The notes below the pieces were generated by a model, which did not search any database, was not told the origin of the DNA, and saw only the letters and a program-made list of their open reading frames with translations. A stretch of 64,000 nt of DNA. Source: Trametes villosa. Lineage: Eukaryota > Basidiomycota > Agaricomycetes > Polyporales > Polyporaceae. Below are positions 22,058-64,000 of the stretch, one piece after another. The position numbers were made by a program, and so were the translations under genes. The stretch's first letter is position 1. Each line of letters starts with the position of its first letter. The stretch spans positions 221,624 to 285,623 of the forward strand of contig PUDQ02000036.1 in the NCBI GenBank assembly GCA_002964805.2, in the 5' to 3' direction.

Positions 22058-22697
22058 CTAGAACTTCCCCTCCCCAGCCTCCAGAACCTCATACCCACCC
22101 CCAGGCAACACCACCCTGCCCTGACCCACGCGGCGGCGCTTGTACGCACAAACCGACGCGACGACGCCGAAGAGCGCGAGCAGGACAGGGACGAACACGA
22201 AGGGCGACGCGAGCCCGCCTGCGCACCCCGCGTGGATCCCTCCCGCTCCGGCGCTTGCGGGGTTGGCGGCGAGGACGGTCTGCTCGGGGAGCGACCGGCG
22301 CCACACCGTGACCGCGGCGGGACTGAGCTCTGCGGTCGCGTTCGGAGCTAGGGGTGCATGCATCGTCAGCGGTGCGGGGAGATACGGGTAAAATTGGAGA
22401 GAAAGGACTGACCGACGCCAGGCCCGCAGCGGGCCACCTCCGCGGCGACGAGCGCGTCGAACTGCTGCGGCGTGCACACCGTCTGCAGGCACGTCGGGTT
22501 CACCTTCACCGGCGACTCGCTGCACTCGCAGTCCCGCGCGCTGCAAGTCCCAGTCGGTCAGCGCAGCTCTGAGGGCAAGGCCGTCGAGGACGGAGGGGCA
22601 CGCACAAGGACTCCTCGATCGTGCCGCAGGTGTCGGAGAAGACGGAGACGCGGCCGGCGTGCAGGCAGAAGAAGTCGCACTCGGCGGGGACGGACAT
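22058..22697 (-). CDS. TMR9: short CFEM membrane protein without PPxY (subfamily B)
   Basis: Exons are 22697-22606, 22540-22413 and 22347-22058 (169 codons). The start MSVPAECDFFC matches TMR3 and TMR4, and exon 2 is 128 nt as in TMR3. Eight CFEM cysteines are present (EC, FC, TC, DCEC, TC, VC, RC). The stalk is brief. The helix lies near 22140-22215 (PVLLALFGVVASVCAYKRRR), and only some twenty cytoplasmic residues follow, ending LEAGEGKF. It therefore keeps the ectodomain but lacks the intracellular box and PPxY/LPxY end of TMR3 and TMR4. It could act as a decoy or regulatory partner, or simply be a truncated relative. The splice donor of exon 2 (GTCAGT) is less usual. Confidence 0.75.
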
Positions 22698-24073
22698 GAT
22701 GTCGATGAGGGCTAGGACTGACGTCGGTCGGTCGGGGGTGATAGCCTGCGACTGGGGATCTGCAGGCACGGAAGGGGTGAGCTTCGTCGAACGGTGAATT
22801 GAGTAGCACACGGGCGGCTCACCTGCGAGATGTCGAGGACTACGCTCGTATAATGTGGAGGTCAACCTCTGGAGTCACTCGCACTTATAACCCCCTCGTC
22901 GAGCGTCCTAGCGATGATAGACCCCCGCGCGCAGTCCAAGGATCGCCATGCCATCCACCCCAAGCGCGTCCGAAGGTTCAAACCAACCGCTGATTTTCCC
23001 AACACGGCGCACCATCGTCCGTCCACCCCCCCCCTGGAGGAGGCGCGTCCGTCGATCGCGCACTGGGCCGCAACTGCCATGGGACCGGACGCTACGCGAT
23101 TTTGATTGAGCGGGTCACATTGCACTTATGGGCGCTGCTCGAGAGCGCTGGCCCTGGCGACGCGGGTGATCGTGCCTCGGGGATTGAGGCGAGTCGGGGA
23201 AGATACCGAGCTGGAACGGCCGGCGGCATCCTCGAGGCGAATGGAGGTGAGGAAGGAGGAGAAGCCTCAAGCGCCCAGGGGAGGCAGCTCGGTGTCTGCC
23301 GGCGGCAGCGTCGGCGCCACGTGGAGTGATAGACGCTCCCGCTTCCCAGCTTCCACGTCGCCTCCGGAGCTCGACCACGACACTCTCACCCACAGCAGCT
23401 CGCAGCTCTCATGGTCAGGCGCGCGGGAGTTTGTCCATTTGTCCATTTAAATACCTGAACCCCCTTAATAACCTCCTTCAAACATTTTTGTTAGGGCAGC
23501 GCGTATGTGCTCACAAAAACCGACACAGCCTTCTTGCATTCACAACCTGCGGGCAAGGTGGTGCGAATCGATCACGACGCCGAAGACCCTCATCAAACGC
23601 AGTATAGACAGTTCTTGCACAGGATGGTATACACCTGGTCTATCTCTGATGGAGGCGTCCCATACTGAGCAGCGCTGCTTCTCAACAGGGTGCGTCCTGA
23701 CAGACCTCCAGGCGGTACCTGTCATCGGGCCGATGTTCTATCAACAACATAATCTCCGGCGCAGGCCCCTGCTCCGTAGGCCTCCCTGCTCTGGGTACTT
23801 CGAAGCACCCAGGAATGCACTCGATGAGAGCCGCGGCTCACATGATAGCAGCATGCTCGCATCCGGGTCTCCTGCTGGGACCGCGCAGGCGAACATATTC
23901 TATCCGCTGCGCAGATGGGTGACAGCGAAGGCGGCGCGCTGATGGGACACACGACACACGTTGATCCCTATCACTCCGCTCTAGCTTCTCACTCCCGCCC
24001 GCCCGTCTCCTCAAGCTCACTCTCTCGAGCCTCGCAAGGCGCGCCCGGCCGCCCTCGCTTACGCTCCCCCACC
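22698..24073. other. Spacer between divergent TMR9 and TMR10
   Basis: No recognisable gene in 1.4 kb. It presumably holds both promoters; the in-frame extension upstream of the TMR9 ATG is not supported by its paralogues. Confidence 0.45.
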
Positions 24074-25700
24074 ATGCATCCACCGTCACGCCTCTCGGCT
24101 CCGCTCGCTCTGCTGGCCTTCGCGTTCAGCCTCGGACTGCCCGCCACTCTTTCTGCGAGCACGCTGCAAAATGTGACGGTCGACGACACGGACGGGAGCC
24201 CCTCGGGCGGGTTCCGGATCGTGTACGAGCCGCCGGGCGTGTGGAGCACGGGCCAGAACTGCACGACGTGCGAGGCGCAGGTCGACCGGACGCTCGCGCG
24301 CGACGGGACCTGGCACGACGTCAGCTTCATCTCGGACAACCCGCCCCCCAGCCCGATCAGCGCGACGCTCACGTTCGACGGTGAGTTTTGTGTAACTCGT
24401 GACTTCTAGCGCGTCGGCGTGTGGGCGGTCGCTAACGCGAATGTGCTGCGGCGACACAGGCGTCGCGGTGTATGCGTACTGCATCATCACGCGCTCGTTC
24501 TCGAACCCGAACGGTAACTGGGACCTGTCGTTCCTGATCGACGGAGAGCAGGCGGGGACGTTCAAGCTCGCCCCGAACGGCGATAATACCTATCAGTATA
24601 ATGTGCCAGTGTATGCGAACACCTCACTCACGTCCGGCACGCATACGTTCACGATGGTCGTGGGGCACCCTGGGGGGCAGTCTGCGCTCGCGCTGCTGGA
24701 CTACATGATGTTCACGTACGTACTGCGTCACTTGCCCGCGCTACTCCCGATTGACTAAGGGCTCGATATTTAATACAGGCAAGAAGTCGAAACTACACCT
24801 TCCTCTGGTGGGTCCAGCGTATCGCCCGGTCCGTCGAGCGTAGCACCCGGCCCATCAGCACCCAGCCCCTCCAACTCCTCGCCCACCTCCCCATCTCCCG
24901 CAAACGACGCATCCACACACACCTCCTCTTCCTCCACAACAACCATCGCGCTCTCCGTCTCCCTCGGCGTCGCCGCCCTCCTCGCCCTCATTGCAGGCGT
25001 GTTCTTCTTCACCCGCCGCCGCTACCGCCGCCGCTACGCGCAGCCCGCAACCTCCTCCGCCTTGGATTCCAACGGCGACAAAGACGCCGGCGACCCGGGA
25101 GACCCGCCGTCCACGCCCGGCTTCCACGTCCTGCCGATCTTCCCTGCGCGTAGCGTGCACGAGTCTCAGGTGGCGCATCCATTCATCATCCCCCCGCCGC
25201 CGTCCCCACCTGCGCCCTCGCCGTCGAACGCGACGAGCTACACGTGGCTGCCCTCGGCGGGCGCGTACGTCGCGCGCAAGGGCGCCTCGCCCTCAGAGTC
25301 GCCCTCCGTGCACTCCACTGCCTCGAAATCGGCGACGCGCATGGACGCGGAGCTCCCGCCGATCCCGCAGTTGCCTTCGGGGAGCGGGGGCGGCGTGTCC
25401 TCGCACGAGCCCAGCACGACCGCACTCGCTCCCGCTCCCGCTCCCGCACCAGCTTGGGCCTCGGCGCGGACTACGCAGCGGTACGTGCAAAACGACGAGA
25501 CGCTGTCTCCAGCTAGTCTCTCCCCGGCCTCGGCCTCGGCGTTGGGGAGCTGGAAGGCGCGGCCAGCGGAGGTCGCGCCCCCCGTGTCCCCAGGGGCGAG
25601 TCTAAGTCAGGCGGGAGGAGGGGCGGGGCTGCCGTCCGTGGGGAGTGAGTTCGGGGCGGAAGACGAGGGGCCGCCGCCGTATGCGCCGCGAGCTTCGTGA
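24074..25700 (+). CDS. TMR10: secreted-ectodomain membrane protein with PPPY tail
   Basis: Exons are 24074-24380, 24460-24715 and 24779-25700 (494 codons). A clear signal peptide (MHPPSRLSAPLALLAFAFSLGLPATLS) is followed by about 180 residues of all-beta-looking ectodomain with the signature VDDTDGSP ... FRIVYEP and CTTC ... DGTWHD. This layout recurs in agaricomycete membrane proteins of unknown function and resembles galactose-binding-like folds. A Ser/Pro stalk, a helix near 24947-25015 (ALLALIAGVFFFTRRRYRRRY) and a long Pro-rich tail ending EDEGPPPYAPRAS follow. It shares no ectodomain similarity with the CFEM genes, but it has the same topology and the same terminal motif. That suggests a common intracellular partner, such as a WW-domain ligase or arrestin adaptor (inference). 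Confidence 0.85.
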
Positions 25701-25955
25701 GGAGCGTTTGTTTTTCTCGGTCACTTTATGCATTTGTCTATCTAATGATGGGAGGAGGGAGTCATTATGTACCGTAGCCCGCCTCGGAATATACACTCGT
25801 TTTACAACCCCTCTGCGTGTTGATTGCGAGTACGCCTTCAAATCAATGGACTCACTCGAGCGGGGAGATTTCATTAGTAACACTAAGTCAGCACACCCAC
25901 ACATCCTAGCTCCTAGCCCCTATATAATACATCCAACACTTCCAATGTCGTACGT

Positions 25956-28008
25956 TTAAACCGGCACCGCCGTGATATACCCCCACATCAGCGGCGAGTC
26001 GCTCTTTGCAACAGCAACGACGCGCCAGCCCGCGGCGCGCGCGAGCGCGGCGAGCTCGCGCAGCGTGCGCTCGCACGAGTTCAGCATCGTCATCATCTGC
26101 CCGCCGGCCGTCAGCGTCAGCGTCAGTCTCATCGATCGGGAGCATCGTATGCGGGCACGGAGATGTAAAGGCAGGGGAGGGAAAGGAAGGGGAGGGGGAG
26201 GAGGGGGGACGTAGCACTCACGATCATGTCGCTCGAGGACGCATAGGGGAAGAGAAGGGGATGACGGACGGCGAGCGTGTTCGGGGGCTCGACGATCTTG
26301 ATGTCGGAGGCGTCTGAGTCGGCCTCAGGAGCGGGTTCGGGGCACGCGAGTGGGAGGATGATCTCGTGTAGAATCAGCTTCGTGTCCGGGCCCGCCGCCG
26401 CGCGGAGGCGCGTCAGAATCCTACAACCAGCCCAAATCAGCCACACTTTCCCTATGAACGCGGTGCAAGGATAGAGCAGAACGCACCTGACGCAGTCCTC
26501 GTCCGTCTGGTTGTGCATGACGCGCGCGACGATGTACGCCGCGGGGTGCTCGACCACGCCTCCGCTCACGCCCGGGACGCTCAGCGCCGCGGGCTGCGGC
26601 TCGAAGAAGTCCTGGCCCTGGAAGGTGACGCGGCCCGCGTCGAACAGCTCTTGGTGCTTCGTTCCCCACACCTACATATATGCGCACCGTCCGTCAGAGG
26701 GGATGAGGTGAAGGAGAGAGGGAGAGAGGAGGGAAGGGTGCGAACCTTGCGCGCGATGGCGGCGGTCTGCGGGCGGTCCTGCACGATGAGCCGGAGGTGC
26801 GGGTGCGCCGCCGCGAGGCGGACCGCGACGGACCCGACCCCGCCGCCCACATCCACGACAACCGAGCCCTCCGGCAGCTTGTCCCACGCAAACACTACCC
26901 CCCACCATCAATACAACCCTCATTAACCAACGCCCAAACGCAACGCACCAGCCCTGTCCCCAATACTCAGCCGGCCCTCGGTCGCGGCCCCGAATCCCAT
27001 CGCGCGCCCGACGAGCGCGATCTTCGGCGCGTTCTCCGGCAGCTCGAGGAACGCGTAGTGCGAGAGCTCCGTCTTGAACGCGTACTGGAACGCGCTGGGC
27101 GGCTTGGCGGCCGTGTCTTTCGAGGGGAGGAGCCATTCGTGGATCGAGGGGATCGTCTTGAACTGCTCGCCCGCGCTGGAGGGTAGGTGTCGTCAGCGAT
27201 CGGGAGGGAGGGAGAAGGGGGGAGAGGGGATACGGTACGCCATGGCGATGAAGGCAGCGACGCAGTTCGTGTCGTCGTACTTCTTGCTCGGCCTGGGTGG
27301 ACGTTAGGAGCGTTTCTCAACGTAATCGCCAGGAAACGTACACGTTCTTCAGTTCTTCCAACGTCTTTCCCGTGTCTATGACGCTCGACAGACGGTTGAG
27401 CACGAACACGTCCGGCTCGACCTCGCGGACGAAGTGGTACGTCGCGAGAAGGCGCAAAACATGGCCTGAAAAGAGCGGTCAGCTCCGACTCAAGGTCGAC
27501 ACGGGGAAAAGACTTACTGATTTTGACGGGATCGCTGTGCGCGACGTCGGATCGTGCGGCTGCCTCTTTGCCAAGAACGACCTCGTCAATGCGGCGCGCA
27601 ATCCCGTTTGCGTGCAGCCCCGCTGAGCCGGCCCCGCGCAAGATCTCGACGGTGTGGCTCGCTTCGAGGAACGCGAGGGCGGCGGTGAGCTGGGGCTACA
27701 ATGGAGTATCAGTGCCTCGTACACAATATGAACACGTTGGAGTTACACACATAAAAGAGAGCCTGGGCGACCGCCAAGTTCGGATTGATGACAGAAGCCG
27801 CGAGGCGGTTGCACGCCGCCGTGATGAGTGCAGACGCGTTGGACACCGCTGGGTCCGAGGTCAAGGCATCCGCCGCAGCTTGCTCAGGCTGGGACGGGAT
27901 GTCGAGAGAGGGGTATTTGAGGCCATGTTGGGTGTAGACGCGGTCGATGTCGTCGAGAGCAGCGCCAATGGTGGCATGAAGCTCTCTGAGGGACGCGATG
28001 GAGCTCAT
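25956..28008 (-). CDS. O-methyltransferase, SAM-dependent (plant/fungal COMT-like)
   Basis: Multi-exon gene from ATG 28008 (MSSIASLRELHATIG) to a stop at 25956-25958. The N-terminal part is the helical dimerisation region of this family (FLEASHTVEILRGAGSAG ... RRIDEVVL, then HVLRLLATYHFV-REVEPDVFVLNRLS). The Rossmann part begins with VVVDVGGGVGS, SAM-binding motif I, near 26860, followed by LIVQDRP. Later exons give ARVMHNQTDEDC and LILHEIILP, the region carrying the catalytic His in relatives, and the C-terminus WGYITAVPV. I count eight or nine exons with short introns and did not fix every junction. Such enzymes methylate phenolic hydroxyls in fungal secondary metabolism or lignin-derived phenols. 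No biosynthetic cluster surrounds it. Confidence 0.85.
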
Positions 28009-29783
28009 GGCGAAGTACTAGGCGTTCCAGTTGAGAGGGGTGTATGCGGTTGCTGGTGAATGCGCACAACACCCTGTGCGCACTTATATTGCCCCTACAT
28101 GCCGTTCCTGCCGGTTGGCCAACGTAAGACGTCCATGTAGCATACACCCTCGAACTACGGGGACGAGCAGAGCCTGTGATTCCAGTCAGTCGTGTTCGTG
28201 GCCGCAGTACGACGCGGTGCGAACAACCACTCCACTCACACGTAGAGCGTGGAGTCGCCGCATGCCGAGGCTTCGACGTGTTCCCGGCTTGTGCTTCTCC
28301 TGTGGCCCTCGAGAGTGCTGTGATGGAGGGAGCCTGGTTCGTGGACATTTACAGAGACGCGGCCGCGGGCGTGCGCCTGCGCCTGCGCGTCCGATGCCGT
28401 CGCATCTACCAATCAGATTAGATCTGAGCTGGACTTCCTTGCGCGCCAGCGAGCCGTCCGCGACTCACCGTACTCGTCCTCAGCTCGCTCTTCTACTCAC
28501 CCGCCACGTAGCTATCCATGTGTGCTCTTCAAGAGCACGTCATGATATTAAAGCTCAGGAAATGCTAACGGAACACCCTCTACTCTGAAAGAGCCCGGAC
28601 CGCTGATCAGTTGCGCTGATGCTGCAACCCACCGTCCGTCTACGTCTACACTGACAATACTTCGACAGTAAGAGCGTGGAATCGACCGGCTCACGCGGCT
28701 CGGGGCCAGACCGCCTCATTACGAGCTTATCGACAGAAGGAAGGAACCCCATGGTCCGCACCTGAGGCACGGCGCCCCGGGGACTCCACCCTAGTATTCC
28801 TTCCGGAGGTGGATACTGGCGAACATAGGGAGATAGTCCGGGGAACTATCAACGATGCGCCTGGGCACGTCGACCTCGGGGAGATGATCGTGAGGAAGAG
28901 CCGCCACCATACGGGTCACGGACGTAGAAGTGATACCCCCGCTGCGTTTCGGATGGTGATGTACGTCAACTACTGTTCTTACTGCTGCTTCTAAGTTGTG
29001 CTCACCCACACCCGTACGTGCAGGAATGTAGAGCGATGTTCGTAGCTGACGACATCAGGACCAGATGCGGAGAAAGACGTACTCTTCCATCTCTGTGCTT
29101 TCTGGCAGTGACGGCCCTTCGCAGTGAGGCAGCGTGAGCGGAGAGGTCCTGTAGCGGTCCAAAGAGCAACGAATACGTTATCCCCAGTGAGTCCTTCACG
29201 ATCTCGAGTCCTGTCCTATATTCGCCGAAGATACAAACTCACACGACGCTTTTTGCTCTCCAGTTTGATAGTGGCATCCCTCCCCGCGCGAGAGCGCACC
29301 GAGAAGTGGCTGTTATATGGCGTTGCGGCTGACAACCACTCAGAGTATCGTAGGCAACGGTCAGTACCGCTCGACGGTGGCTATAGCAGATAGTTGATAT
29401 TCAACTGATATTCGCCTGATTCACACAGGCCTTGTGAAGAGTGCTCAATATCAGTACTTGAACTTCGTGTTCTCGGGCCTCCATCCGCATACAGCGCAGT
29501 CAGTTTACGAAAATAGGGTGCATACGACGCCTCGATTGCTCGCCGGATGGCCTGCCATCGAGGAGGTGCCACATCAGTATTCCGGTTGCATCTCGCCGGT
29601 ACGTCCGCTCCGTATCAACTTCGCCTTCGTTTACGCTCTAACACCATCTCGTGACATAGCTCAAGATGCAGTATTTATACGTCTCATTCGCCTGCTATGC
29701 GAGGGGTACACTATTTTCCTCAACGTCTCGCTCTCATTCCCTTCACATTCTGGGGCGAATTTGCTTGTTGACCTCCTTCCGAC
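28009..29783. other. Gene-poor stretch between the methyltransferase and TMR11
   Basis: About 1.8 kb with only short frames and no domain, helix or CFEM pattern on either strand. It presumably includes both promoters. Confidence 0.4.
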
Positions 29784-31670
29784 ATGCGCTCTGAGCCGTC
29801 GACAAATGTGCGTGCATTTGAACGCCACTCAGGAGGGCAGCCGGGGGCAGGTGCCCGATTCAGCTCCTCAAGCGGTTTACCGGCGCGCCACTTCCGTCGC
29901 GTCAGACGGGCTCGCGTCCCATCCATATACACCAGGTTCGTCTCAGTCACTCGTCGCTCTGTATACTCAAACGCCGTGGCTGGGACCATGCGGCAAATGT
30001 CTCCTACTCCTCCGCCGACAATCATGCTGATACCGGCTTTGTTCACAGGGGCGACTCGGATGGATCCCGATTCCCTAACGAGGTCGAGTGCGTAACGTCG
30101 ACGTGCGCCTTAAGCAAAAATGAGTCAGAGCCAGACGTCGTCCAACAAGCCAGCTCCACAAAACGATCGACAACAAACAACAATGGAGGCAACGGCGGCA
30201 ACGGAGGCGTCGGTGGGAAAGGTGGAAACGGTGGCGACGCAGTCGGCAGTGGAAAAGGCGGCAACGGTGGCAACGGAGGGGACGCCGACGACGGCGGTAT
30301 CGGAGGAAACGGAGGCAACGGAGGTACCAGCGACGAAGGCACGGGAGGAAACGGCGGGAATGGTGGAAACGCGCTAAACGGAGGCATAGGAGGTAATGGC
30401 GGGAACGGAGGGGACGGACTGAACGGCGGTACTGGGGGTAACGGCGGAAATGGCGGCAACGCAGGTGTATCACAGACAGTGAACGTTCCCGGTGCGTTTG
30501 CTGAGCACGCAGCTCTCGTACGACGCTGACCTATCTTATACAGGCACTACTGTCACTCAAGTGTTGAGTCCCCCGACGAGCCAGCCTATCACCACACACA
30601 ACCTCCCCGCTCCCACCGTAACTCGTACTCGGTTACCCACTTCTGGCTTGGACGGGAGTCCGGGAACCGTGGGTCGAGCCACAACGTGGATCACACTGTC
30701 CTTCACAGTCTCCGCCCCAACAGCCACGATCACTCAGCCCGTACCCATCTCCGCCATACCAAGCCCATCCGGACTCAACACCTCTTCCGAGCTCGCCAGA
30801 TCTTCCGGCGAGAGTGCCACATCAACGCCGAGTGCCGCTCCACCCACCAACGGCAGACCTGGAGAGCCGTCGAAACTCCTTCTCATCCTGCTTCTCTTCC
30901 TGCTCGCTCTCTTCGCTTTCGCCGCCTTGGTTCTCGGGTGCATCTTGCGCGAGAGACGAAGGCGTCGAGCGCGCGAAGAGCGCTCCCAGAGAGAAGATAG
31001 CCAGTCATCTCAGACCACTACGTTGGTCTCCGAGTGCGAAGAGGGTACGAAGTGCGGCCCACCGGACGGAGACGCACCGAGTCCGCGCGACGAACGCGCA
31101 ACTCTTGACTGCCTACCCTCCCTACCTGTTCTCCGCCAGCTTCAAAGCGAACGGCCTCAGCCTCTCTCGGACCAGTCCACCACGGACATCACTCCCCAGG
31201 AAACCGCCAGTACCGACGATCTGCCTATCTGGCGTCTTTCGACCTGCTCGTCGCGACGAACCTCTCAGTCTTCCGCAGGGCCTTACGACCCTACCAGCGT
31301 CTGTGCAGTGGTAGACGAGAAACACGGTGCAGTGGAGGACCCGCCCATGCCCAGCGGATCGTCCGCTCGCAGCGAGACGCGAGAGCTCACCGAGGAAGGT
31401 CTGCCTTATCTCCCAGTTGAAGCGAACCAGGAGGAGCTTGGTCCCCCAGAGGCAAGCCCGCACGGTCAATGGGAGGCCAGTAGCGAGGAGTCGGAGTTGC
31501 CTCCGCCGTACGAGCCCCGGACGCGAGAGAACCCGCGGTTCGCCACTCGACCTCTCGGACACTCGCAAAGCATCAATTCCCGCTTCTTGAAGCGCATGCG
31601 TGCCCGGCTCGCTGCCGCGCCTACCTCTGCAAGGTCGGGGAATCCCCCACGCGAGTACATCTCGCAGTGA
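29784..31670 (+). CDS. TMR11: subfamily A membrane protein with decayed CFEM and Gly/Asn repeat
   Basis: Exons are 29784-29935, 30049-30491 and 30544-31670 (573 codons); splice phases equal those of TMR1 and TMR2, and the exon 1 donor (CAGGTTCGT) matches TMR2 (TAGGTTCGT). The N-terminus aligns with TMR2. At the first CFEM cysteines the protein has Arg codons (GLPARHFRR...RARV), the CxC pair is missing, and only ECVTSTC remains, so two of eight cysteines survive. A Gly/Asn-rich stretch with GGNGGNGG units then occupies 30184-30472. After the stalk, a helix near 30877-30950 ends [10 protein letters not shown]. The tail carries ELPPPYEP followed by a basic extension of about 50 residues that TMR1 and TMR2 lack. 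A disulphide-stabilised CFEM fold is unlikely here. Confidence 0.75.
30184..30472 (+). repeat. Gly/Asn-rich coding repeat in TMR11
   Basis: A purine-biased run of GGN GGN AAC codons yields about 95 residues of GGNGGNGG separated by short variable inserts (DAVGSGK, DADDGGI, TSDEGT, ALNGGI). It looks like an expanded trinucleotide-based microsatellite kept in frame. It resembles the Gly/Asn repeats of mycobacterial PE_PGRS proteins in composition only. Confidence 0.85.
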
Positions 31671-54656: not shown

Positions 54657-54733
54657 TTAGTCGGGCTGCACCCCCGCAAGCTGTCCGCGCCGGAAGCCCT
54701 CCAGCGCGGTCTGGCGATGTAAAACTCACGAAT
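54657..54733 (-). pseudogene. 3' remnant of a third F-box paralogue, cut by the retrotransposon
   Basis: On the minus strand the 77 bases next to the LTR read RQTALEGFRRGQLAGVQPD followed by a stop (TAA at 54657-54659). This aligns with the C-termini of F-box proteins 1 and 3 (RAVVLEGFRRGLLAGMV and RETVLEGFRRGLRAGVV). The coding sequence stops exactly where the LTR begins. The remainder should lie beyond the far end of the element, outside the window. Confidence 0.75.
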
Positions 54734-55005
54734 GTAGGGCACTCCTGATGCCCGCAGTCTCCAAGTACTCTGGTCCGGGCTCTATTAGGGCTCGGCGTAC
54801 TCGGGAGATGGTGGGGCAGTTGTAGAAGGCTGCCCTCACCAGACGCGCGGGCTCCGAATACCCGCGCGTCGTACGCGTCTATCTACTACATGATATCTAC
54901 GCGGTATCTTATCCTAGCGCAACTAGCGCCAGGTACTGGTTGCGACATAGCGCAACTAGCGCTATGTCCTACAAGAACCCGTAACGACCGCGGAGGGTCG
55001 TTACA
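54734..55005 (-). repeat. 3' LTR
   Basis: On the minus strand it begins TGTAACGACC next to the polypurine tract and ends CCCTACA at the F-box remnant, giving TG...CA termini and 272 bases. It begins with an inverted repeat (GTAACGACC and its complement around GCGGAG, 54981-55004) and contains a 10-base-arm hairpin (54842-54851 with 54861-54870). The five bases outside it, ACGAA at 54729-54733, are the expected half of a target-site duplication. Confidence 0.8.
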
Positions 55006-55017
55006 CTCTCCCCCTCT
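55006..55017 (-). other. Polypurine tract
   Basis: AGAGGGGGAGAG on the minus strand, immediately before the LTR. This is the position where the plus-strand primer of reverse transcription forms in LTR elements. Confidence 0.8.
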
Positions 55018-55475
55018 AGACCCGTTGTACGGGTCTACAATAGAATATTATAATAAAAGGAACGACTGCTGATATTCGCAGTCATAGCACTATATGATAC
55101 AAAGAGTTGCGCATAGTGCGTGCGCAACTCATATATACAATGAGTCAGTGAGCCAAGTAGGCTCACAGGATGGTCATAGCAGTGCAGTGGGATATATACA
55201 CGACTGCAGATAGTAGCAGTCATACCACTACACTACCATGATATGGTAGTGTTTTTGTTTTTGGGTTATTGATGCGCGCACCGTGGGGTGCGGCTATGTA
55301 CATTAGTACCGCAGCTATGGCGGACGAACCGATCAATTTTTGACGCAGATCGGTTGCGTTATGCCCGAGGAGACGATAATATCGTCTCCTACGGGGACTG
55401 CAAATATTTGCAGTCATACCGTCGTGGTATACGACGAGTGCATGACGGATGCACTCGAAGATGTTGATTAGACAC
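55018..55475 (-). other. Untranslated 3' region of the element, hairpin-rich
   Basis: No open frame. Perfect inverted repeats follow one another: arms of 9-10 bases at 55017-55037, 55104-55130 and 55368-55390, an uninterrupted 20-base palindrome at 55396-55415, an 8-base pair at 55327-55355, and several with 6-7 base arms. The transcript here would fold as a string of hairpins. Confidence 0.8.
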
Positions 55476-58043
55476 CTACGCGGTGTCGTCGTGTGGCGAT
55501 GACGGGGTGAGGGGGGAGGATCCCTGCTCACCCGTCGCGTTCTCGCTCTCGTCGTGCCTGTCGCTAGTAGCGGCAGGCGGTTGGGAAGGCCCGGCGACAG
55601 GTGCCTCCTGCACGTCCTCCATCGCGCGAGCGGGGGAGTACGGCGGAGGTGGGACTCCGTCATCGGGATGGGTACCCGCCACTACGTGTGACGGGGTCGA
55701 GGCAATGCTCGACGGTTCGGCGACCGCAGTTATGGCGGTCGCGGCGGTGGTAGTGGACGCGTCGGTCATGTCGACGTCGTCGGTGGTAACGGCAGGCGCC
55801 TCGGGCGCCTGCGGGGGTGCTGGTGCGGGTGCGGGTGCTGGTGCGGGTGCGGGCGCGGGCGCAGGTGCGGGCGCGTTGGGGGGCGGCAGTGGGCCGCCTG
55901 TGGCGACTGGTCCCAAGTCCCGCGAACTGGGCACGACTCCGACGTCGAGAGTCGAATTCGGGCCGCCATCCATTTGAGGCAGCAGCGACCGAAGGTCGCG
56001 CCCATTCCGCTCGTTGCGGCACAGTCTCGCGAGCGGTAGGAACCGCTCCGCAGCCGTCGGGGTAAGACCGCGCGCCGCAAACCAGCGCGCTAGGTGGAAC
56101 AACGTCGTGCTTGCGACGTCGTTGGGGTAGGGGCCCGGGTGGTAGCTAGTACCCACGGGGTACTGCCCCTGCTCTACCACGTAACGGTAGAGCCCCGGCA
56201 CTGAGAACAGCCAGTGGGCGAGGGTCACCCAATGCCCTCGCGGTCCCAGTGGCGTGCCGCGCGGCAGCATCGCTCGAACGGCAACGTGGTACTCCACGCT
56301 GCGCGTCGTAGGAAGCCCATTTGGCTCCCGCTCCATCCACTGAGGGATACGGCGCTCATCGACGCCATACCAAGCCTGCCACACAGCAGGCGGGTCACTG
56401 AAGCTCGGCTGGTTTGGGGCCGGCGCCGTGCGCTGGGCACGCAGCTTCAGTTTGACCTCCCGCCACTCGGCGGGCGTCCGCTTGCGCGAGAGGGTCGACG
56501 ACGGCGGCGGCAAGTGCGCCGTCGACGCGTGCTCGAGTCCAGGGGGAGTGTTTCCCCGGGAGTCGGCTCGTTGAGCCGCCGCGATCAGCGGCGGCGGCGC
56601 CTCTCGACGCCACGACGACTGTAGCTGGTTGAGACCAGCCACTCCTGTGTACTCCGAACGGGAGTTCACTTGACCAATTAGGTCGCGGATGCGGTGAGCC
56701 GCCTCACCCGTATCACGGCGAGCAGCCATGATGATGTTGTTGGCGTCCGCGACGGACACCGGCACGTAGTTGTACCAGTGCCCCGCGAGACGCGGGTCCG
56801 AGTCGGTGGGGAGGGCCAACAGGTGGTACGGCCACCCGGGGACCCTCGCCACATCCGTCGCTGGTTGCGGCGGAGGTTGCGTGCCAAACGGCGCGCCCTG
56901 ACCCGGAGCATGTGCCGGGCCAGTGTCGCGACGAGCACGACGATATCGGTTTCGAGAGACGAGTCTCTCGATCCGCCTCTCGTCGATGTCGTCGTCCTCG
57001 TCGCTCGTCGCGTTCTCCCAGTCCACCATAGGGTGGTCCCGGTCCGCGGATGTCGACGAGGTCGGCATCGCCGTCGAGTTCGACGGTCCTGCCACATTTG
57101 GCGTCGTCATCTGCGACGCTCCAGTCCTCGATGGTCCTGCCCCGCTGGGCAGCGACACGATCGGCATCAAGCTGGGCCCAGCGGACGGCGCTGAGCTCCT
57201 TGATGTCGACGCGAACGACCTATCGTTCGCAGTATCCCTCCTCCGAGGGCTGAGTTCCCTCGGGTCGCGTCGTCGTTCGTCGCGCGGAGGCGACGCCCTC
57301 CTGTGCCGAGCCCGACTGAGCTCAGCCTCCAACTGCGAGCGCACCTCATCGCGCTCGCGCTCGTACTCGTCGCGCTCCTGGCGAGCGGCCTCGCGCTCGC
57401 TCCGGTATCTGTCCCGGATCGACTTCGTCTCGTCGACGAGCTCCTTCATCTTCTGGAGCTTCGCCTCGAGCTCCGCGATCCGATCGCGGCTCCTCCCCTC
57501 CTCCACCCTCTGGTGCTCCTCGAAGTGCCGCCAGAACCGCTGCTGCAGTTCTGACTGGACGCGCGTCTGCGCGTCCCGGAACGTCGAGTCTGACGCCGCC
57601 GAGTTGTAGTGGCGGACAAAGTCCGCGCACACAGCGCAGTTGTCGCTGTGCGCGACCAACAAGTGTTGGCCCGCTACGGGCGCCCAGGTCATGCTCGAGA
57701 AGGGCATGAGGGGGATGCCACCAGTCTGTGGCATCGGCGCGCTCGAACTGGGCGCGCTCTGGAATGCAGGACCCGCTTGATGCGGGAACTGGAAGCCGCC
57801 GCCGTACGGAAACCCGTAGGCGGGCATGCCCTGCGAGAAGGCATGCGGGAACTGCTGGGGGTGGGTTACCCCCGGCATGGACGAGAATGCGGGGGCTGCC
57901 GCTTGTTGCGGCAGCAGGAACTGCGAAGGTTGGGGGAAGGGGATGTTTTGTTGTTGAGGGGCCGCAGGTTGCGACCCCTGTTGCTCCGAGGCTTGCTGCC
58001 CAGGGCTGCTGGTTTGCGTGTTGTCTTGCGGGGCGTCGTTCAT
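55476..58043 (-). CDS. ORF3 of the retrotransposon, unknown function, env position
   Basis: Intact 855-codon frame starting at ATG 58043, 248 bases after the pol stop. It has a Gln/Pro-rich N-terminus (residues 1-130), a small Cys motif (CAVCADF), and a strong coiled coil at about 185-245 (ELEAKLQKMKELVDETKS, EREAARQERDEYERERDEV). A basic Arg/Ser region (SPPRDERRRDP), a central folded part of about 250 residues (GHWYNYVPVSVADANNIIMA ... RIRDLIGQ), an Ala-Pro dipeptide repeat and a PPPPYSP motif follow. It has no signal peptide or membrane helix, so it is not an envelope protein. Coiled coil plus basic region plus a PPxY motif recall a structural or nucleic-acid-binding accessory protein. I recognise no family. 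Expression would need a separate promoter, splicing or re-initiation. Confidence 0.85.
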   Translation of the reverse strand: MNDAPQDNTQTSSPGQQASEQQGSQPAAPQQQNIPFPQPSQFLLPQQAAAPAFSSMPGVTHPQQFPHAFSQGMPAYGFPYGGGFQFPHQAGPAFQSAPSSSAPMPQTGGIPLMPFSSMTWAPVAGQHLLVAHSDNCAVCADFVRHYNSAASDSTFRDAQTRVQSELQQRFWRHFEEHQRVEEGRSRDRIAELEAKLQKMKELVDETKSIRDRYRSEREAARQERDEYERERDEVRSQLEAELSRARHRRASPPRDERRRDPRELSPRRRDTANDRSFASTSRSSAPSAGPSLMPIVSLPSGAGPSRTGASQMTTPNVAGPSNSTAMPTSSTSADRDHPMVDWENATSDEDDDIDERRIERLVSRNRYRRARRDTGPAHAPGQGAPFGTQPPPQPATDVARVPGWPYHLLALPTDSDPRLAGHWYNYVPVSVADANNIIMAARRDTGEAAHRIRDLIGQVNSRSEYTGVAGLNQLQSSWRREAPPPLIAAAQRADSRGNTPPGLEHASTAHLPPPSSTLSRKRTPAEWREVKLKLRAQRTAPAPNQPSFSDPPAVWQAWYGVDERRIPQWMEREPNGLPTTRSVEYHVAVRAMLPRGTPLGPRGHWVTLAHWLFSVPGLYRYVVEQGQYPVGTSYHPGPYPNDVASTTLFHLARWFAARGLTPTAAERFLPLARLCRNERNGRDLRSLLPQMDGGPNSTLDVGVVPSSRDLGPVATGGPLPPPNAPAPAPAPAPAPAPAPAPAPPQAPEAPAVTTDDVDMTDASTTTAATAITAVAEPSSIASTPSHVVAGTHPDDGVPPPPYSPARAMEDVQEAPVAGPSQPPAATSDRHDESENATGEQGSSPLTPSSPHDDTA
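55816..55880 (-). repeat. GC-rich hexamer repeat coding Ala-Pro in ORF3
   Basis: About ten units of GGTGCG/GGCGCG type encode an uninterrupted Ala-Pro run. It is a simple-sequence expansion likely to vary in length. Confidence 0.8.
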
Positions 58044-58290
58044 GGCGCGGGCGTCGTTGTTGGTGGTGGTGGTGAGGTGGCAGAGGTCGGTTATGACCCT
58101 GCACTCGCGAGGTCGCCGTCTTAAAGCGCCGGCGGAGTCCGAACGCGTCGGTGGCTGCCTCGCGCACGCGAGTCTGCACGTGACGTACTACTTCACGGTC
58201 ACGCGCTCTCTGCGCGTGCTCTGTCCTCCACCACGACTACTCACTCGGGTAGTCTTGACCACGAAGCGCATGTTGCGCTTCGTACATCCG

Positions 58291-61200
58291 CTAAGTCTTG
58301 GCGGATGTTTTCTTGGGCAACGCGCGCCAAGATGACACGCCCATTAGACGACAATACTCGTCTAATGCTACGAGCTCCTTACAGTGCTCGTAGGGTTCCC
58401 ATGTATGGTCCCCCATCGTCCACCGCACGTGGAACTGGCACTTATTGCCATTCCACTCGTGGCCGATAATCTCTTCCACCAACCATTCGGTGGAGTCTTC
58501 ATTGCCGAAGTCGTAATACGACTTCGCCTCACGATGCGGGAATACCGCATCGTCGTTTGGCTCATAGCGTCGTAATAGCGACGCGTGGAACCGAGGGTGT
58601 ATCCTTCGGTTCCGGAGTTCTTCTGGTAACTCCAGTACGTAATTTGACGTGCTGGGTATGCTCTCAATTATAGCATACGGTCCGATGTACTTAGGCACGA
58701 GTTTTCGTGCCCGACCCTTAGGTATCGACAAATTCTTTGTCGATAGGTATACCTTGTCCCCGACCTCAAAGTCGGGTTCGGCTTGCCTATGCTTATTCGC
58801 ATAGTGTGTCTGGCGCACTCGCGCCTCGATGATGGCATCATGCGCCATCTCCAAGTTCGCCTTGGCTCTGAGTGCGAACTCTCGCACTCCTCGAAACGGA
58901 GTATCCGTTCCGATTCCGTTCATAGAACGCGGGAGATACCCGTAGTTCAACTCGAACGGAGCGAACCCTGTGGTAGAACTTACCGCAGAGTTGATAGCGA
59001 ACTCCGCTATCGGTAGCTTCTCATACCAGTCCAACTGGTCAGGAGCTACCAGTGCACGGAGTATCTGCGACACTGAGCGTATACTACGCTCAGATAATCC
59101 ATCCGTCTGTGGATGGAACGACGTGGACATAAGCAGCTTCGCCCCCATAAGGCGATGCAGTTCCTTCCAGAACTTGGAAGTGAACTTCGAGTCTCTATCA
59201 GAGACTATGGAGTCCGGTAGCCCGTGTAGACGGACTACTTCCCTGAAGTAGACCAGCGCCAGGTCTGACGCTGTGTCGGTTGTCTTGATGGGTATAAGGT
59301 GTACCATCGAGGTCAACCGACAGACTACAATCCATATGTAGTCGTATCCGTGCGAGGGCGGAAACGGACCGAAGAAATCCATGGACATAGACGTCCATGG
59401 CACCGTAGGTATCGGTAGCGAGTGTAACAGCCCTATAGGGGGCTGTGTACTTATTTTCGTGGTGTGGCACACGCCGCACGAAATGCAGAACTTGTCTACA
59501 TCCTTGCGTAACGCGGGCCACCAAAACCACTTGCGCACGTACTCTGACGTGCGCTGAGGTCCAAGATGTCCAAGCGCGCTATGCGCTTGGTCTAACACGA
59601 GCTCCTGAAGGGCCCGTTTCCGATACAGACCACGAGGTATACACAATACCTCGTCGCCTTCACGGTTCTTGGTGTATATCACACCCTCGCGCATTACGAA
59701 TGCGCGATGCTGAGTAGGCCGTTCCAGTATTTTCTGGAACGTCGGGTCATTAACATAACCTGACTTGACGGCTTTCAGGAAGCCGTCGTCTCCTTCTACC
59801 CAGACACGCAAAGAGGGACCCGCAGATAGCGAGTCCGACAGCGTCACATTGTCGCTGTCCGGGGTTGCTGCAGTCACCGAGATAGGTGCGTGTGCAGCGT
59901 AACGAGCCGACTCTACGACTCGTTCCTCTATTGGTTCTTGCACGCGTGTAGCGTGCGCGTTATCTGTCTCTAGCTGCGCGAGTTTCCGCGCAGATCGACG
60001 CAACACTCGAGCTGCGCGTAGCTCGATGAGTCGGGAGAAGGGGAGATCATCCCCTTCAGGATCTAGCCGCAAGTCGGCGTTAACATAGTCGAAATCTTCG
60101 GCTAGTTCCTCTATGTCGTCGTGTTCGAAGTAGCGGGATAAGCAGTCCGCTACTTTGTTCAGTTTACCTGGAATATAGGTAATCGTCTTGTCGAACCTCG
60201 ACAAGAATTCGTACCACCGTATCTGACGGTGGTTAGGACGCTCGAGTCCCTCAAGGAACTCGAGAGCTCTATGGTCAGTGACTATATTGAGCTTTCGTCC
60301 TATGAGCTTGTCCTCCCACTTGAACAAGCCTTCCATGATGGCTAGAGCTTCTTGCTCGTAGGTGCGATACGCCCGTTGTGCGGACGTAAATTTCTTCGAC
60401 AGGAACCCGGCTGGCCTGCAAGTTTGCCAGTCGGGTCCTTGCCCGTATAACGCTCCGAGTCCATACACGGACGCATCACAGATCAACCAAATGGGATCTG
60501 TGGAAGCCGGATCTATCGGCTTCAGTATGGGCACCTTACACGCGAGTGCTTTGATAGACTCAAAACACTTGTCGTGCAGTGCGCGCCATACGAACGGACG
60601 GTCGTTATGGACCATGTCCGATAACGGCGATGTGTACGCCGTTACATCTGGCATAAAATGTGCCAGATAGTTTACTAGCCCGAGGAACCGCTGCACCTCG
60701 TTATACGAGCGAGGTGTTCGCCAGTTCCTGATACGGCTCATCTTGTCCGTATCGGCGTGTAGTCCCTTGTCATCTATTCGGTGACCGAGACAATCCAAGT
60801 CTTTGGAGTATAAGTCGCACTTGCTGCGGCTTAGGAAAAGCTTCGCCTCTCGAAGCTTTTCGAACACTATCCTTAAGTGTTCTTCGTGCTCCTCCTTGGA
60901 GTCCGAAAATACGAAAATGTCGTCCAAATAGACATGGACGAACCTTCCGATACAGTCACGGAATATGGCTGTCATTAGACGTTGGAATGTGGACGGGGCG
61001 TTGGTGTCGCCCTGTTGCATGACCTCGCTCACGAACGTCCCGTAAGGCGTCGCGAACGCGGTCTTCCACACGTCCTCCGCAACTATGCGGATCTGTTCGT
61101 AGGCGTCGGACAGATCAATCTTCGAGCGATACTTCGCTCGAGCAACGTCCATCCGGATCTGGTCTTGATCCGGAAACGGTGTCAGGTCGTGCACCGTGTT

Positions 61201-61836
61201 CTGGTTTCGTTGTCGCGCATCGAGTACGGTGCGCAGCTTGCCATTCTTCTTGGCAACGCACAGCAGAGGCGCTGCTTGCGTGACCGTTACCGGTCGCCAC
61301 CAGCCTGCCTTCACATAGCGATTGATTTTCGCTATGAGCTCTGGCTTCACCACGTCCGCGCAACGTGGGAGATGATAGCGATATTTCTTCGCTTCATCGA
61401 TGAGCGGAATGTGGTGATTGATCTCCCGGAACGGCGGGAGATGCTCCGGCGCAGGACGCATAATGTCCTCGGTGGCCGCATACCAGCGGTCACGAAGAGC
61501 TTTCAGCTCCTCCTCTTCCTCGTCTATGACGAACCCAGCGTGGGTTCGTCGGATCTGTTCGTCTTCCCACTGCTCCTTGGCTATCTTGTCCAAGAGCTCG
61601 TTGATGCCGTATGGGTCCTCGTACCCATACTTGTCCCTTCTAGGACCTCGCGACGAATGCATCGTCGGAATGAATTTTTCGCCAATGTTCGGCGGCGAGC
61701 TATCTTTGGCTCGCCCTTGGTGTCGTTCAGGAATCTTAACGGTTTCTACACCGTTCCCTCCCCCTCCTGACGACCCTCCGGACTTGTCGTAACGAGAGTG
61801 GGGAGGTTCCACTCTTGTGGAACTCGCTACGTTGTC
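58291..61836 (-). CDS. Pol of the chromovirus: RT, RNase H, integrase, chromodomain
   Basis: Read in the same frame as gag-pro after the UAG at 61839-61837; no ATG occurs near its start (codon 61812 is GTG). Reverse transcriptase shows KIDLSDAYEQIRI and the catalytic VHVYLDDIFVFS near 60920. The RNase H region has IWLICDASVYGLGALYGQG, FTSAQRAYRTYEQEALAI and IVTDHRALEFLEG. Integrase has a zinc-binding part (HSALGHLG, then CISCGVC) and a DD35E core (MSMDFFGPF; IVSDRDSKF; HPQTDGLSERS). The last 60 residues form a chromodomain (EWLVEEIIGHEWNGNKCQFHVRW, HTWEPYEHC), which in relatives directs integration to marked chromatin. The frame is fully intact. Confidence 0.95.
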   Translation of the reverse strand, partial: DNVASSTRVEPPHSRYDKSGGSSGGGGNGVETVKIPERHQGRAKDSSPPNIGEKFIPTMHSSRGPRRDKYGYEDPYGINELLDKIAKEQWEDEQIRRTHAGFVIDEEEEELKALRDRWYAATEDIMRPAPEHLPPFREINHHIPLIDEAKKYRYHLPRCADVVKPELIAKINRYVKAGWWRPVTVTQAAPLLCVAKKNGKLRTVLDARQRNQNTVHDLTPFPDQDQIRMDVARAKYRSKIDLSDAYEQIRIVAEDVWKTAFATPYGTFVSEVMQQGDTNAPSTFQRLMTAIFRDCIGRFVHVYLDDIFVFSDSKEEHEEHLRIVFEKLREAKLFLSRSKCDLYSKDLDCLGHRIDDKGLHADTDKMSRIRNWRTPRSYNEVQRFLGLVNYLAHFMPDVTAYTSPLSDMVHNDRPFVWRALHDKCFESIKALACKVPILKPIDPASTDPIWLICDASVYGLGALYGQGPDWQTCRPAGFLSKKFTSAQRAYRTYEQEALAIMEGLFKWEDKLIGRKLNIVTDHRALEFLEGLERPNHRQIRWYEFLSRFDKTITYIPGKLNKVADCLSRYFEHDDIEELAEDFDYVNADLRLDPEGDDLPFSRLIELRAARVLRRSARKLAQLETDNAHATRVQEPIEERVVESARYAAHAPISVTAATPDSDNVTLSDSLSAGPSLRVWVEGDDGFLKAVKSGYVNDPTFQKILERPTQHRAFVMREGVIYTKNREGDEVLCIPRGLYRKRALQELVLDQAHSALGHLGPQRTSEYVRKWFWWPALRKDVDKFCISCGVCHTTKISTQPPIGLLHSLPIPTVPWTSMSMDFFGPFPPSHGYDYIWIVVCRLTSMVHLIPIKTTDTASDLALVYFREVVRLHGLPDSIVSDRDSKFTSKFWKELHRLMGAKLLMSTSFHPQTDGLSERSIRSVSQILRALVAPDQLDWYEKLPIAEFAINSAVSSTTGFAPFELNYGYLPRSMNGIGTDTPFRGVREFALRAKANLEMAHDAIIEARVRQTHYANKHRQAEPDFEVGDKVYLSTKNLSIPKGRARKLVPKYIGPYAIIESIPSTSNYVLELPEELRNRRIHPRFHASLLRRYEPNDDAVFPHREAKSYYDFGNEDSTEWLVEEIIGHEWNGNKCQFHVRWTMGDHTWEPYEHCKELVALDEYCRLMGVSSWRALPKKTSAKT

Positions 61837-61860
61837 CTACTGCTTAGGTTTAGCAGTACC
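61800..61860 (-). promoter_or_regulatory. Candidate stop-codon readthrough signal between gag-pro and pol
   Basis: The order is CAG UAG GAC, 10 more bases, then a perfect 7-base hairpin (GTTCCAC, loop AAGA, GTGGAAC). A 5-base inverted repeat (CTGCT ... AGCAG) ends just before the UAG. A downstream structure and a G after UAG are known helpers of retroviral-type readthrough, but function here is inferred. Confidence 0.6.
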
Positions 61861-64000
61861 TTCGAATTGGAATCGAGGAACCCATTTCTTGGGTTCGGGT
61901 TTCGCAGTCGTCGAAACCTCAGGATCGAACAACGGCAAACTTTTGCCGTTGATTACTACCGTACCTGCACGGAAGTCTAGGATTACTCCATGCTTCCTGC
62001 AGAAGGTAGTTCCCAACACGACATCGTACTTATCGATGTCTACTACGTCAAAGTATTGCGTAGTATTCACAGAGCCCACCTTGAGCTCTGCTTGCGCACC
62101 ATAATTGATGCGCGTCTTGCTGCCCTTGGTTCCCAATTGCAGCCCTACAGGCTGCGCCAGATCGATACGATCTGCGCGACTCAGATACGCCAACTCTGGC
62201 GTAATCGAATCGGTCGTGCAGCCCGAGTCGAATAAGGCCAGAGCTGTGACCTTATTGATTGTAATCTCAGCGCATAGTGTGCGCTGGGCCTGGAGCGTGC
62301 GCACAGGTTGCGCCGCGGGATCGTCTATACGACGTATCTTGTTGTCGTATAACCAGGCCTGCTTGTACCCTCGCGTGGGTGCAACCGCCATGGTGTGTAA
62401 CCGAAGAGGCTCAGGTTCGGCCTCTTCCAGCGGTGCAATACGCATCGCGATGAAGTATTCATCTGCATCTCCCTCTCCAGGAGATGCGTAATGATCCTCG
62501 TCAGGATCATACTGAGATCCTTCCAGACCATAGTCTGACAACGGATATTCTCCGTTATCGTCTGGGCTATCCGCAAGAGCCTCGGGTTCAGGCTCTTGAT
62601 CCTCGGGACGAGTTGCCGTGTTGTCGTCGGCAACGTCTTGTTGTGTAGACGGCTCGTTGCCGTCGTCCGACGTGTCGTCGATGACACGCTGAGCGAACAT
62701 CCGCTGTACTGTAGCGGATTTCTTCCCGTAGTTGGGACATTTCGCGTCGCTCGCGAAGTGGCCTATTTGACCACAGGAATAGCACTTAAGAGGTGCTTTC
62801 TGAGTCTTATCAATCCGCGCAGTTGACGCGGATTGCTGCACCGCGCCAGACTGACGCGGTACCGAACCACCTCGCACGTCTGTCGAAGGGCGTTTAAAGC
62901 CAGTAGTAGCTTTAGGTGTCGTAATATTATTACTACGGGAAGCCGAAGCCGTTGGCTTCCTAAGTACATTACGCACTCCTCGTTGCGGGCGTGCCTCTAC
63001 CGTCGGCTTAGCACCGGTGTTCGGTATAGTATGTGCTCGCGAAGGTTCGCGAGCTAACTTCCGAAGCCGCATAGCGCGCGACTTCTGCTCAATATCTTGA
63101 GCCACTTGGTACAATTGTGCCAAGTCGTGTTCTTGAGGAGACATACCGTTAACAACGGTAAGTAGGTACTCGATGTCTTCGGGTAACGCCTCAATGAACT
63201 TCCTACGCAATTGGAAGGGCGTAGGCTTCTCCCACATCCTTTCGGATATGTACAGCAGCTTCTCATATAAAGCTGCAACCCCTCCGTCACTGGAGCGGTA
63301 AACTAGCGAAGCATACTGTTGCTCCGCAAGTAGGTTCAAATCCTTATGGATGAACCTACGATAGAGTGCTATAACAGTCTCCTCGAATATCCAGTCGCGC
63401 TTATCGCGCGACGGAGACTGTATAGTGTTGTAGAACCACGTAGCGGCATCACCGCTAAGTGCAGTGCCCAATATTCGGACACGGTCACGGTCCATCCTAG
63501 GACCCGTGATCCTCAACGTGTTGAAGTACTCGAGGAGGCCTCGCAGCCATACCTCGAGTGCGTCGAGATCGTCCTTCCCCTCGTATGTCTTGGGTGGCGC
63601 AAGTTTCGCCACCTTCAAGTACGCAGGGGGATCACCCTCTGGAGGTGATCCAACCATCTCATCTATCATCCGCACGAGACGGCTGATCGTTACACCATCA
63701 CGAGGCCCTACTACAGGCCCCGTGTATGCCAGCGGTTCCGTAGCTTCCGCTGGCTGCATAGGAGGTAATCCTCCGTAATATGCAGACGCTCCCATTGAAC
63801 GTCGAGGGTGTTTCCAGTCCCATAGTCCAGGCGGCCGTTCTTGACGGTACGCGGGTCCTTGGGACGCAGACATTGGCTCAGCGGGATAATCGCTGGGCGA
63901 GGATGGAATTGGCTGCGCGACATGCGCAGCCCTAGTCGACCCTTGCGGATTATCGAATGCAACGTTCCGAGTAGGAACGGCATTCTGTACATCGCCAGTT
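61837..64000 (-). CDS. Gag-protease of the chromovirus, 5' end outside the window
   Basis: The frame is open from the window edge; an internal ATG at 63873 may or may not be the start. A capsid-like Retrotrans_gag segment (YLKVAKLAPPKTYEGKDD, GDAATWFYNT, RRFIHKDLNLLAEQQY, RRKFIEALPEDI) is followed by a basic linker. A CCHC zinc knuckle (CYSCGQIGHFASDAKC, near 62788-62735) comes next, then an acidic region and a retropepsin with ALFDSGCTTDSITPELAY (near 62235). It ends AKPKQ then UAG at 61839-61837. The frame continues without further stops into pol, so the two form one polyprotein separated by a single amber codon. Confidence 0.93.
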   Translation of the reverse strand, partial: TGDVQNAVPTRNVAFDNPQGSTRAAHVAQPIPSSPSDYPAEPMSASQGPAYRQERPPGLWDWKHPRRSMGASAYYGGLPPMQPAEATEPLAYTGPVVGPRDGVTISRLVRMIDEMVGSPPEGDPPAYLKVAKLAPPKTYEGKDDLDALEVWLRGLLEYFNTLRITGPRMDRDRVRILGTALSGDAATWFYNTIQSPSRDKRDWIFEETVIALYRRFIHKDLNLLAEQQYASLVYRSSDGGVAALYEKLLYISERMWEKPTPFQLRRKFIEALPEDIEYLLTVVNGMSPQEHDLAQLYQVAQDIEQKSRAMRLRKLAREPSRAHTIPNTGAKPTVEARPQRGVRNVLRKPTASASRSNNITTPKATTGFKRPSTDVRGGSVPRQSGAVQQSASTARIDKTQKAPLKCYSCGQIGHFASDAKCPNYGKKSATVQRMFAQRVIDDTSDDGNEPSTQQDVADDNTATRPEDQEPEPEALADSPDDNGEYPLSDYGLEGSQYDPDEDHYASPGEGDADEYFIAMRIAPLEEAEPEPLRLHTMAVAPTRGYKQAWLYDNKIRRIDDPAAQPVRTLQAQRTLCAEITINKVTALALFDSGCTTDSITPELAYLSRADRIDLAQPVGLQLGTKGSKTRINYGAQAELKVGSVNTTQYFDVVDIDKYDVVLGTTFCRKHGVILDFRAGTVVINGKSLPLFDPEVSTTAKPEPKKWVPRFQFEGTAKPKQ

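Follow-up and report, generated by a model that had tools for sequence, protein, structure and literature searches.

The last 9.3 kb of a 64,000-nucleotide stretch of Trametes villosa DNA (contig PUDQ02000036.1; the whole stretch is called the window here) belongs to a Ty3-type long terminal repeat (LTR) retrotransposon lying on the minus strand, of which it forms the 3′ part. It contains gag, pol and a third open reading frame (ORF3), followed by a 3′ non-coding region and the 3′ LTR (Table 1); the domain order reverse transcriptase (RT), RNase H and integrase, together with the LTRs, is that of a Ty3-type element. Window and contig end at the same point and the element continues past it, so its 5′ part is absent from this copy. 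An initial annotation, made from the letters alone, had described the element as packed along its length with short perfect inverted repeats. Here we report how far this excess goes, which relatives have it, and what may have produced it.

Inverted repeats and predicted folding along the element

Perfect inverted repeats with arms of at least 8 bases and loops of 0–15 bases number 67 in positions 54734–64000, compared with 13 in the 54.7-kb host part (1–54700). All 20 repeats quoted in the initial annotation are present, with perfect arms of 8–11 bases, and its estimate of about two by chance agrees well with dinucleotide shuffles of the element, which average 2.44 (maximum 7 in 100 shuffles). 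The host genes had given no impression of such an excess, and indeed three host stretches lie near their own shuffles (6 vs 4.6, 4 vs 5.3 and 3 vs 3.9). The excess also goes beyond synonymous-codon shuffles, a check named beforehand, with 11 vs 1.1 in gag, 29 vs 1.2 in pol and 14 vs 2.5 in ORF3. Repeats do occur in the LTR, untranslated region, ORF3, pol and gag, but not alike as had been claimed: they are strongest in the 3′ non-coding end (10 arms of at least 8 in 54734–55475, vs a shuffle mean of 0.11) and in pol, and weakest in ORF3, where arms of at least 9 number 2 vs 0.8 in shuffles.

Non-overlapping hairpins (arm at least 6, loop 3–12) number 161 and cover 3354 of the 9267 bases. When arms of at least 7 are compared with the host scaled to element length, the counts are 1 vs 0.7 for loop 0, 3 vs 1.2 for loop 1 and 4 vs 0.5 for loop 2, and reach 99 vs 3.4 for loops of 3–10 bases; the excess is about twofold for loops up to 60 bases and is gone past 80. 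Such a peak at 3–10 bases is what a folded single strand requires, and the predicted pairs are local, 77% of them spanning 40 bases or fewer. Two kinds of RNA-loop signature, first mismatches and tetraloops, were also looked for, with nothing clear.

The longest perfect arm in the window copy is 11 bases, and a single predicted helix in the 9.3 kb is as long as 15 (with G-U pairs, a predicted helix reaches 17); a related family, B, has one arm of 12. Dicer substrates are longer than these hairpins. The abundance of hairpins would suit a source of small hairpin RNAs, one of the three causes offered in the initial annotation, but since the perfect arms end at 11 bases this purpose is very improbable, and we have rejected it on the arm limit.

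In predicted folding energy, the sense RNA of the element is 34.6% more stable than dinucleotide shuffles in 200-nt windows (mean z score −5.15, 46 windows) and the antisense 29.8%; the corresponding values in 350-nt windows are 33.6% and 28.4%. Host sequence at 20001–30000 has a folding excess of 0.6% and −0.5% on its two strands. Measured over synonymous shuffles, sense folding is in excess by 35% in gag, by 37% in pol and by 18% in ORF3; another retroelement family, L029, gives −9.6%. In 120-nt windows, z falls below −2 in 83% of 305 windows and lies above −1 in 5% (mean −3.55). Chance and codon bias are thus ruled out as the cause by both kinds of shuffle, in counts as well as in folding, and the excess is independent of codons and composition.

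Weak folding is found at a few places. Around the gag and ORF3 start codons, 10 windows have their centre no more than 75 bases away, and in 9 of these z is −2.5 or weaker, a pattern picked out post hoc. A CA-rich leader (58044–58080) precedes the ORF3 start, and the windows near it fold weakly (z −0.1 to −1.6), in contrast with the greater part of the element. Within ORF3, low-complexity GC-rich and Ala-Pro repeats lie at 56575–56598 and 55811–55990, the latter being the sole run of at least three consecutive weakly folded windows.

Table 1. Features of the retrotransposon copy, in window positions
Feature	Position	Strand	Basis
3′ LTR, 173 bp, TG...CA	54718..54890	-	Family A homology boundary and LTR matches
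Region of excess, with 207 perfect inverted repeats of arm at least 6 and 67 of arm at least 8	54734..64000	.	Count and shuffles
3′ non-coding region, highest hairpin density	54891..55475	-	Arm count vs shuffle
Example hairpin, arm 11, loop 1	55368..55390	.	Repeat count
Example 20-base palindrome, arm 10, loop 0	55396..55415	.	Repeat count
ORF3, 855 aa	55476..58043	-	Open reading frame; Pfam search
pol frame: RT, RNase H, integrase, Tf2-1-like SH3	58291..61836	-	Pfam; same frame as gag past one TAG
Example hairpin in pol, arm 11, loop 5	60835..60861	.	Repeat count
Hairpin just past the gag stop, arm 7, loop 4	61806..61823	-	Sequence read
TAG separating gag and pol, common frame	61837..61839	-	Sequence read
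gag, zinc knuckle and protease-like domain	61837..63873	-	Pfam; protease matches below Pfam's cut-off

Distribution among the retroelements of the genome

A scan of the 46.7-Mb genome (140 contigs) with a 1-kb pol piece gave 43 candidate places, of which 40 were scored: 29 match at 96–100% (family A, which includes the window copy; some are fragments), 7 at 74–75% (family B) and 4 at 67–73%. The element is clearly not a single odd copy, since these 29 places exist and the fetched family A loci carry about 5–7.5 arms of at least 8 per kb. Family B (L013) is also folded, with excesses of 25.9% sense and 20.8% antisense in 200-nt windows (24.7% and 21.0% in 350-nt windows), while those of L019 are 5.3% and 4.1% in 200-nt windows.

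We have compared 14 places using 2.9–3.5-kb pieces around RT. The sense folding excess is 37% in A, 31% in B, 21% in L034, 16% in L018, 9% in L019, 8% in L017, 7% in L033 and 6% in L020, followed by 5% in L032, 4% in L031, 0.3% in L036, −0.7% in L035, −4% in L029 and −7% in L030. Repeats with arms of at least 8 in the same pieces number 29 in A, 12 each in B and L034, 4 in L018, 2 each in L019, L017 and L033, 1 each in L020 and L031, and 0 in L032, L036, L035, L029 and L030. In a protein tree, built without L020 (whose longest frame aligned badly) and without L036, the A, B, L018, L034, L033, L017 and L019 sequences group together (100/100), apart from L029, L031, L032 and L035, the last on a very long branch. 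From this ranking and the tree, a single Ty3 clade of those sampled has the strong folding trait, with gradation among its members.

The repeat excess is absent at the six places sampled outside the clade (L032, L031, L036, L035, L029 and L030), which rules out a trait common to all retroelements of the genome. These six represent five families, since L029 and L030 are near-identical in pol, and L035 and L036 may be other kinds of retroelement. The initial annotation had named an excess in relatives as support for its claim; such an excess is seen in family B, but the other clade members have less, and the 6–9% of the weakest is barely distinct from the 4–5% of L031 and L032. The clade member L034 (G000:C1:4731263-4734762), with its 12 arms in 3.5 kb and 21% folding excess, stands above L033, L017 and L019 of its own subgroup, so that more than one rise or fall of the trait in the clade is possible.

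Families A and B, 69% identical in pol, do not share their hairpins. In each of four B copies, 0–3 of 50 A stems with arms of at least 7 are intact, and 191 of 386 A pairs still pair in B (L013) vs 189 expected under independent change; the same outcome was obtained for L010, L012 and three sequences designated C. Inheritance of the hairpins from a common ancestor is thereby ruled out, and the two families are both folded, with different hairpins. Arms of at least 7 in pol number 15 in B vs 51 in A at similar folding, meaning that perfect-repeat counts understate B.

Several other features of the element and its family were noted. In a comparison with 6 family A loci, homology stops at 54718 in 5 and at 54721 in the remaining one, and LTR matches in L037 and L026 span 173 of 173 bases. 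The 15 bases ahead of the LTR upstream of the L026 copy (in L037) are identical to those ahead of the 3′ LTR, which suggests tandem copies sharing one LTR at L037/L026. Primer sites for tRNA typically begin with TGG; the sequence after the 5′ LTR (L037 reverse complement 559-731; L017 8705-8873) is CTTTTTTACTCTTACC, which does not start in this way; the priming mode may be unusual. The pol open frame of 1181 aa is found in 12 family A places, window copy included, and the gag-TAG-pol arrangement, its TAG read in the window copy only, looks like stop-codon readthrough. The pol C-terminus, where elements of the chromovirus branch of Ty3 carry a chromodomain, looks like one by eye and has no Pfam match at E 0.01, although PF00385 occurs on some of 120 listed relatives; among these 120 of 1001, the named ones come from Trametes, Phanerochaete and Phlebia. 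A scan of viral contigs with pol found no relative. ORF3 gave no Pfam match at E 0.01 and has, as judged by eye, coiled-coil-like and proline-rich stretches. Two relatives of it were found among 7991 scored candidates (45% and 37% identity, one from Trametes coccinea), and it has a counterpart of 37% identity in family B and weak ones in L017–L019.

Constraint within families and the cause of the hairpins

Within family A, we have compared 15 loci with the window copy, dropping 41 sites at which the window copy is private or minor, bases with more than one partner, and alignment pieces shorter than 300 bases. Third-codon variants shared by at least two copies fall in stems (arm at least 6) in 16 of 146 cases, although stems hold 29% of the sites. 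For shared non-CpG third-position variants and stems with arms of at least 7, the counts are 12/593 stem sites vs 114/2118 others (odds ratio (OR) 0.36, p=0.0004). Single-copy CpG transitions, which are expected from post-insertion decay and thus serve as an internal control, are not depleted (18/593 vs 56/2118, OR 1.15), and single-copy non-CpG variants are intermediate (OR 0.62, p=0.06). Stem arms of the window copy are unchanged in L026, L027 and L028 in 104/116, 82/95 and 89/115 cases, compared with 85.8, 66.3 and 67.6 at random places. Four pairs have changed on both sides in one copy and all four still pair, vs 0.39 expected (P about 0.0005); one further pair occurs in three states, T-G (window copy), T-A (L026) and C-G (L028). 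In family B, single non-CpG variants are also depleted in stems (13/561 vs 230/4566, p=0.003), with no depletion of CpG variants.

We consider it probable that the genomic RNA of the element has been selected to fold nearly throughout as short local hairpins, the best supported of the three causes offered at the outset; we infer that the sense RNA is the target of this selection and that the folding shields that RNA from silencing. Compared segment by segment, the sense strand folds more stably than the antisense in 31 of 46 cases for A (p=0.0027) and in 25 of 36 for B (p=0.0025). In the RT pieces, sense is the stronger strand in B, L017, L018, L019, L020, L031, L032 and L034, and antisense in L029, L030, L035 and, slightly, in L036 and L033. 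The ratio of G-U to A-C variants in stems is 23:10 in B (outside 222:233, p=0.03), 43:21 for A shared plus B (vs 301:314 outside, p=0.006, a pooling picked afterwards) and 65:43 with all pooled (p=0.03).

The same strand signals bear on selection at the DNA level, for hairpins in single-stranded cDNA or extruded cruciforms. Stem pairs that are mostly Watson-Crick and an antisense folding as strong as 28–30% would fit such hairpins. The sense strand is nevertheless above the antisense in both families, and the loops of the sense strand are richer in A (0.33) than in T (0.24) in family A, though not in B (0.33 vs 0.34), leaving DNA-level selection improbable.

Selection for RNA folding has to be set against a number of observations that weigh against it. 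All folding considered here is predicted. Multicopy families without such structure exist in the same host genome. In the RT/pol pieces of A, the antisense (z −5.64) is stronger than the sense (−4.88), and G-U pairs make up 6.5% of sense folds vs 8.5% of antisense. The G-U to A-C ratio among shared A variants is 20:11 in stems (outside 79:81, p=0.17), that of single A variants is 22:22 (outside 125:129), and with stems taken from the window copy only (arm at least 6) there is no preference (12:15 shared, 32:38 single). Shared first- and second-position variants in family A are not depleted in stems (13/40 vs 28% of sites). For the shared non-CpG variants of family B, depletion in stems does not reach significance (6/561 vs 87/4566, p=0.18), and no compensation was seen in that family. 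With the G-U and A-C counts mixed and G-U pairs fewer in sense folds, the strand evidence for RNA is moderate.

Because the strand evidence goes no further, a mutational origin stays a rival, namely that template switching of reverse transcription in near-palindromes copies one arm onto the other with no benefit to the element. It would also yield apparent compensation, would treat both strands alike, and agrees with the mostly strict Watson-Crick stems, with the near equality of G-U and A-C variants in window-copy stems, with the undepleted first- and second-position variants, and with near-perfect stems whose 37 mismatches include transitions of both kinds (16 G-U and 11 A-C). The stem-gain rows, 34 in seven copies and many common to several copies, show one to three scattered changes. 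Two of them (L026, L028) carry both of their changes in a single arm, and each converts two G-U pairs to Watson-Crick pairs, as template switching would; a further L028 row combines two changes in one arm with a third in its partner. In none of the 34 does a single arm carry three or more changes, although the copies are few and old events would escape, and in clusters of differences in 15 copies no arm was seen by eye to be rewritten as its partner's complement. Template switching is also at odds with the six places outside the clade that have no repeat excess and with sense folding above antisense in A and B, and it does not predict the weak folding near the gag and ORF3 starts (seen post hoc). 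We regard this explanation as unlikely.

If selection for folding is accepted, its benefit may be sought in the packing of RNA into particles or in protection from nucleases. Structure in coding and non-coding parts alike and the local span of the pairs would suit either one; on the other side, unstructured Ty3-like families are multicopy in the same genome, so such structure is not generally needed. We think this reading somewhat unlikely, its folding part being common with the best explanation; packing or RNA stability is the main benefit that rivals a silencing shield.

For the folding selection that we favour, the benefit would most likely be shielding of the sense RNA from silencing that works by base pairing, through guide RNAs and RNA-dependent RNA polymerase (RdRP). 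Duplexes of 11 or fewer lie below Dicer length, and each duplex would stay too short for Dicer. Over long times, the identity of the pairing bases would be irrelevant, and what would count is that most of the RNA is paired. Profile matches in the host genome comprise 11 Piwi stretches (10 over the cut-off), 19 of RdRP and 8 of RNase III.

Comparison with known systems

The initial annotation knew of no description of such an element. For retrotransposons this is uncontradicted by our literature search, which covered few subscription journals and is weak evidence; the property itself, genome-scale ordered RNA structure (GORS), has however been described in positive-strand RNA viruses. Yeast Ty3 and Ty1 genomic RNAs are one comparison. 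Ty3 is an element of the same type, likewise encoding gag, RT, RNase H and integrase, and its RNA has folded regions; about 20% of that RNA forms a well-folded core, and no whole-genome excess over shuffles is claimed in the parts of that study cited here (PMC11381356). The miRNA-like hairpins of maize transposable elements are likewise structured RNA in LTR elements discussed with small RNAs, but the passages on them cited here concern stretches of at least 21 nt, the Copia ones concentrated in LTRs (PMC10760457), whereas the present arms are no longer than 11 and occur throughout.

Quasi-palindrome correction by template switching is a process that turns imperfect inverted repeats into perfect ones. 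In the present element, with few copies compared, 0 of 34 gain rows have a one-arm conversion of at least three bases and two rows have one of two.

The closest likeness is to the GORS viruses. According to the sections cited here, these have a whole-genome folding excess over shuffles with many consecutive stem-loops, their pairings are poorly conserved among relatives, and their paired sites are less diverse (PMC7642675); duplexes longer than 11 bp are said never to occur, a statement based on work then in preparation (PMC3950689). In the element, too, the folding energy is far above shuffles (33.6–34.6% sense, and 18–37% over synonymous shuffles) and is spread over the whole available length, with 83% of 305 windows below z −2. 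Families A and B are both folded with unconserved pairings (191/386 vs 189 expected), and family A has less diversity at paired third positions (OR 0.36), though not at first and second ones, and the shared variants of B are not significant. The perfect arms also end at 11, though a G-U helix reaches 17 and a B arm 12.

There are two differences. The carrier here is an integrated multicopy fungal LTR retrotransposon with a DNA stage, not a persistent positive-strand RNA virus, and its mean of 33.6% (350-nt windows) is above the whole-genome values given in the sections cited, 15% for SARS-CoV-2, 7.5–10.7% for hepatitis C virus and a vertebrate RNA virus maximum of 23.4%, computed with different shuffling programs; single coronavirus regions reach 35–50% (PMC7642675). 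In vertebrate viruses, GORS has been linked to persistence and evasion of innate sensing (PMC7642675, PMC3950689), and how it acts is described as unsettled (PMC3950689).

Our tentative proposal, put forward as a possibility, is that one fungal Ty3 clade evolved whole-genome folding, above the viral means quoted, as a passive shield against RNA interference. Hairpins everywhere, each below Dicer length, would be stable enough against guide RNAs and RdRP, and the pairs could turn over freely. The host fungus is not known to have interferon, and the shield reading, if true, would give GORS a function independent of it. In such elements, synonymous sites would not be neutral clocks. In one fungal genome with RNA-interference gene families, a folded element lies beside unfolded retroelement families, and this natural contrast makes it possible to test what GORS is for.

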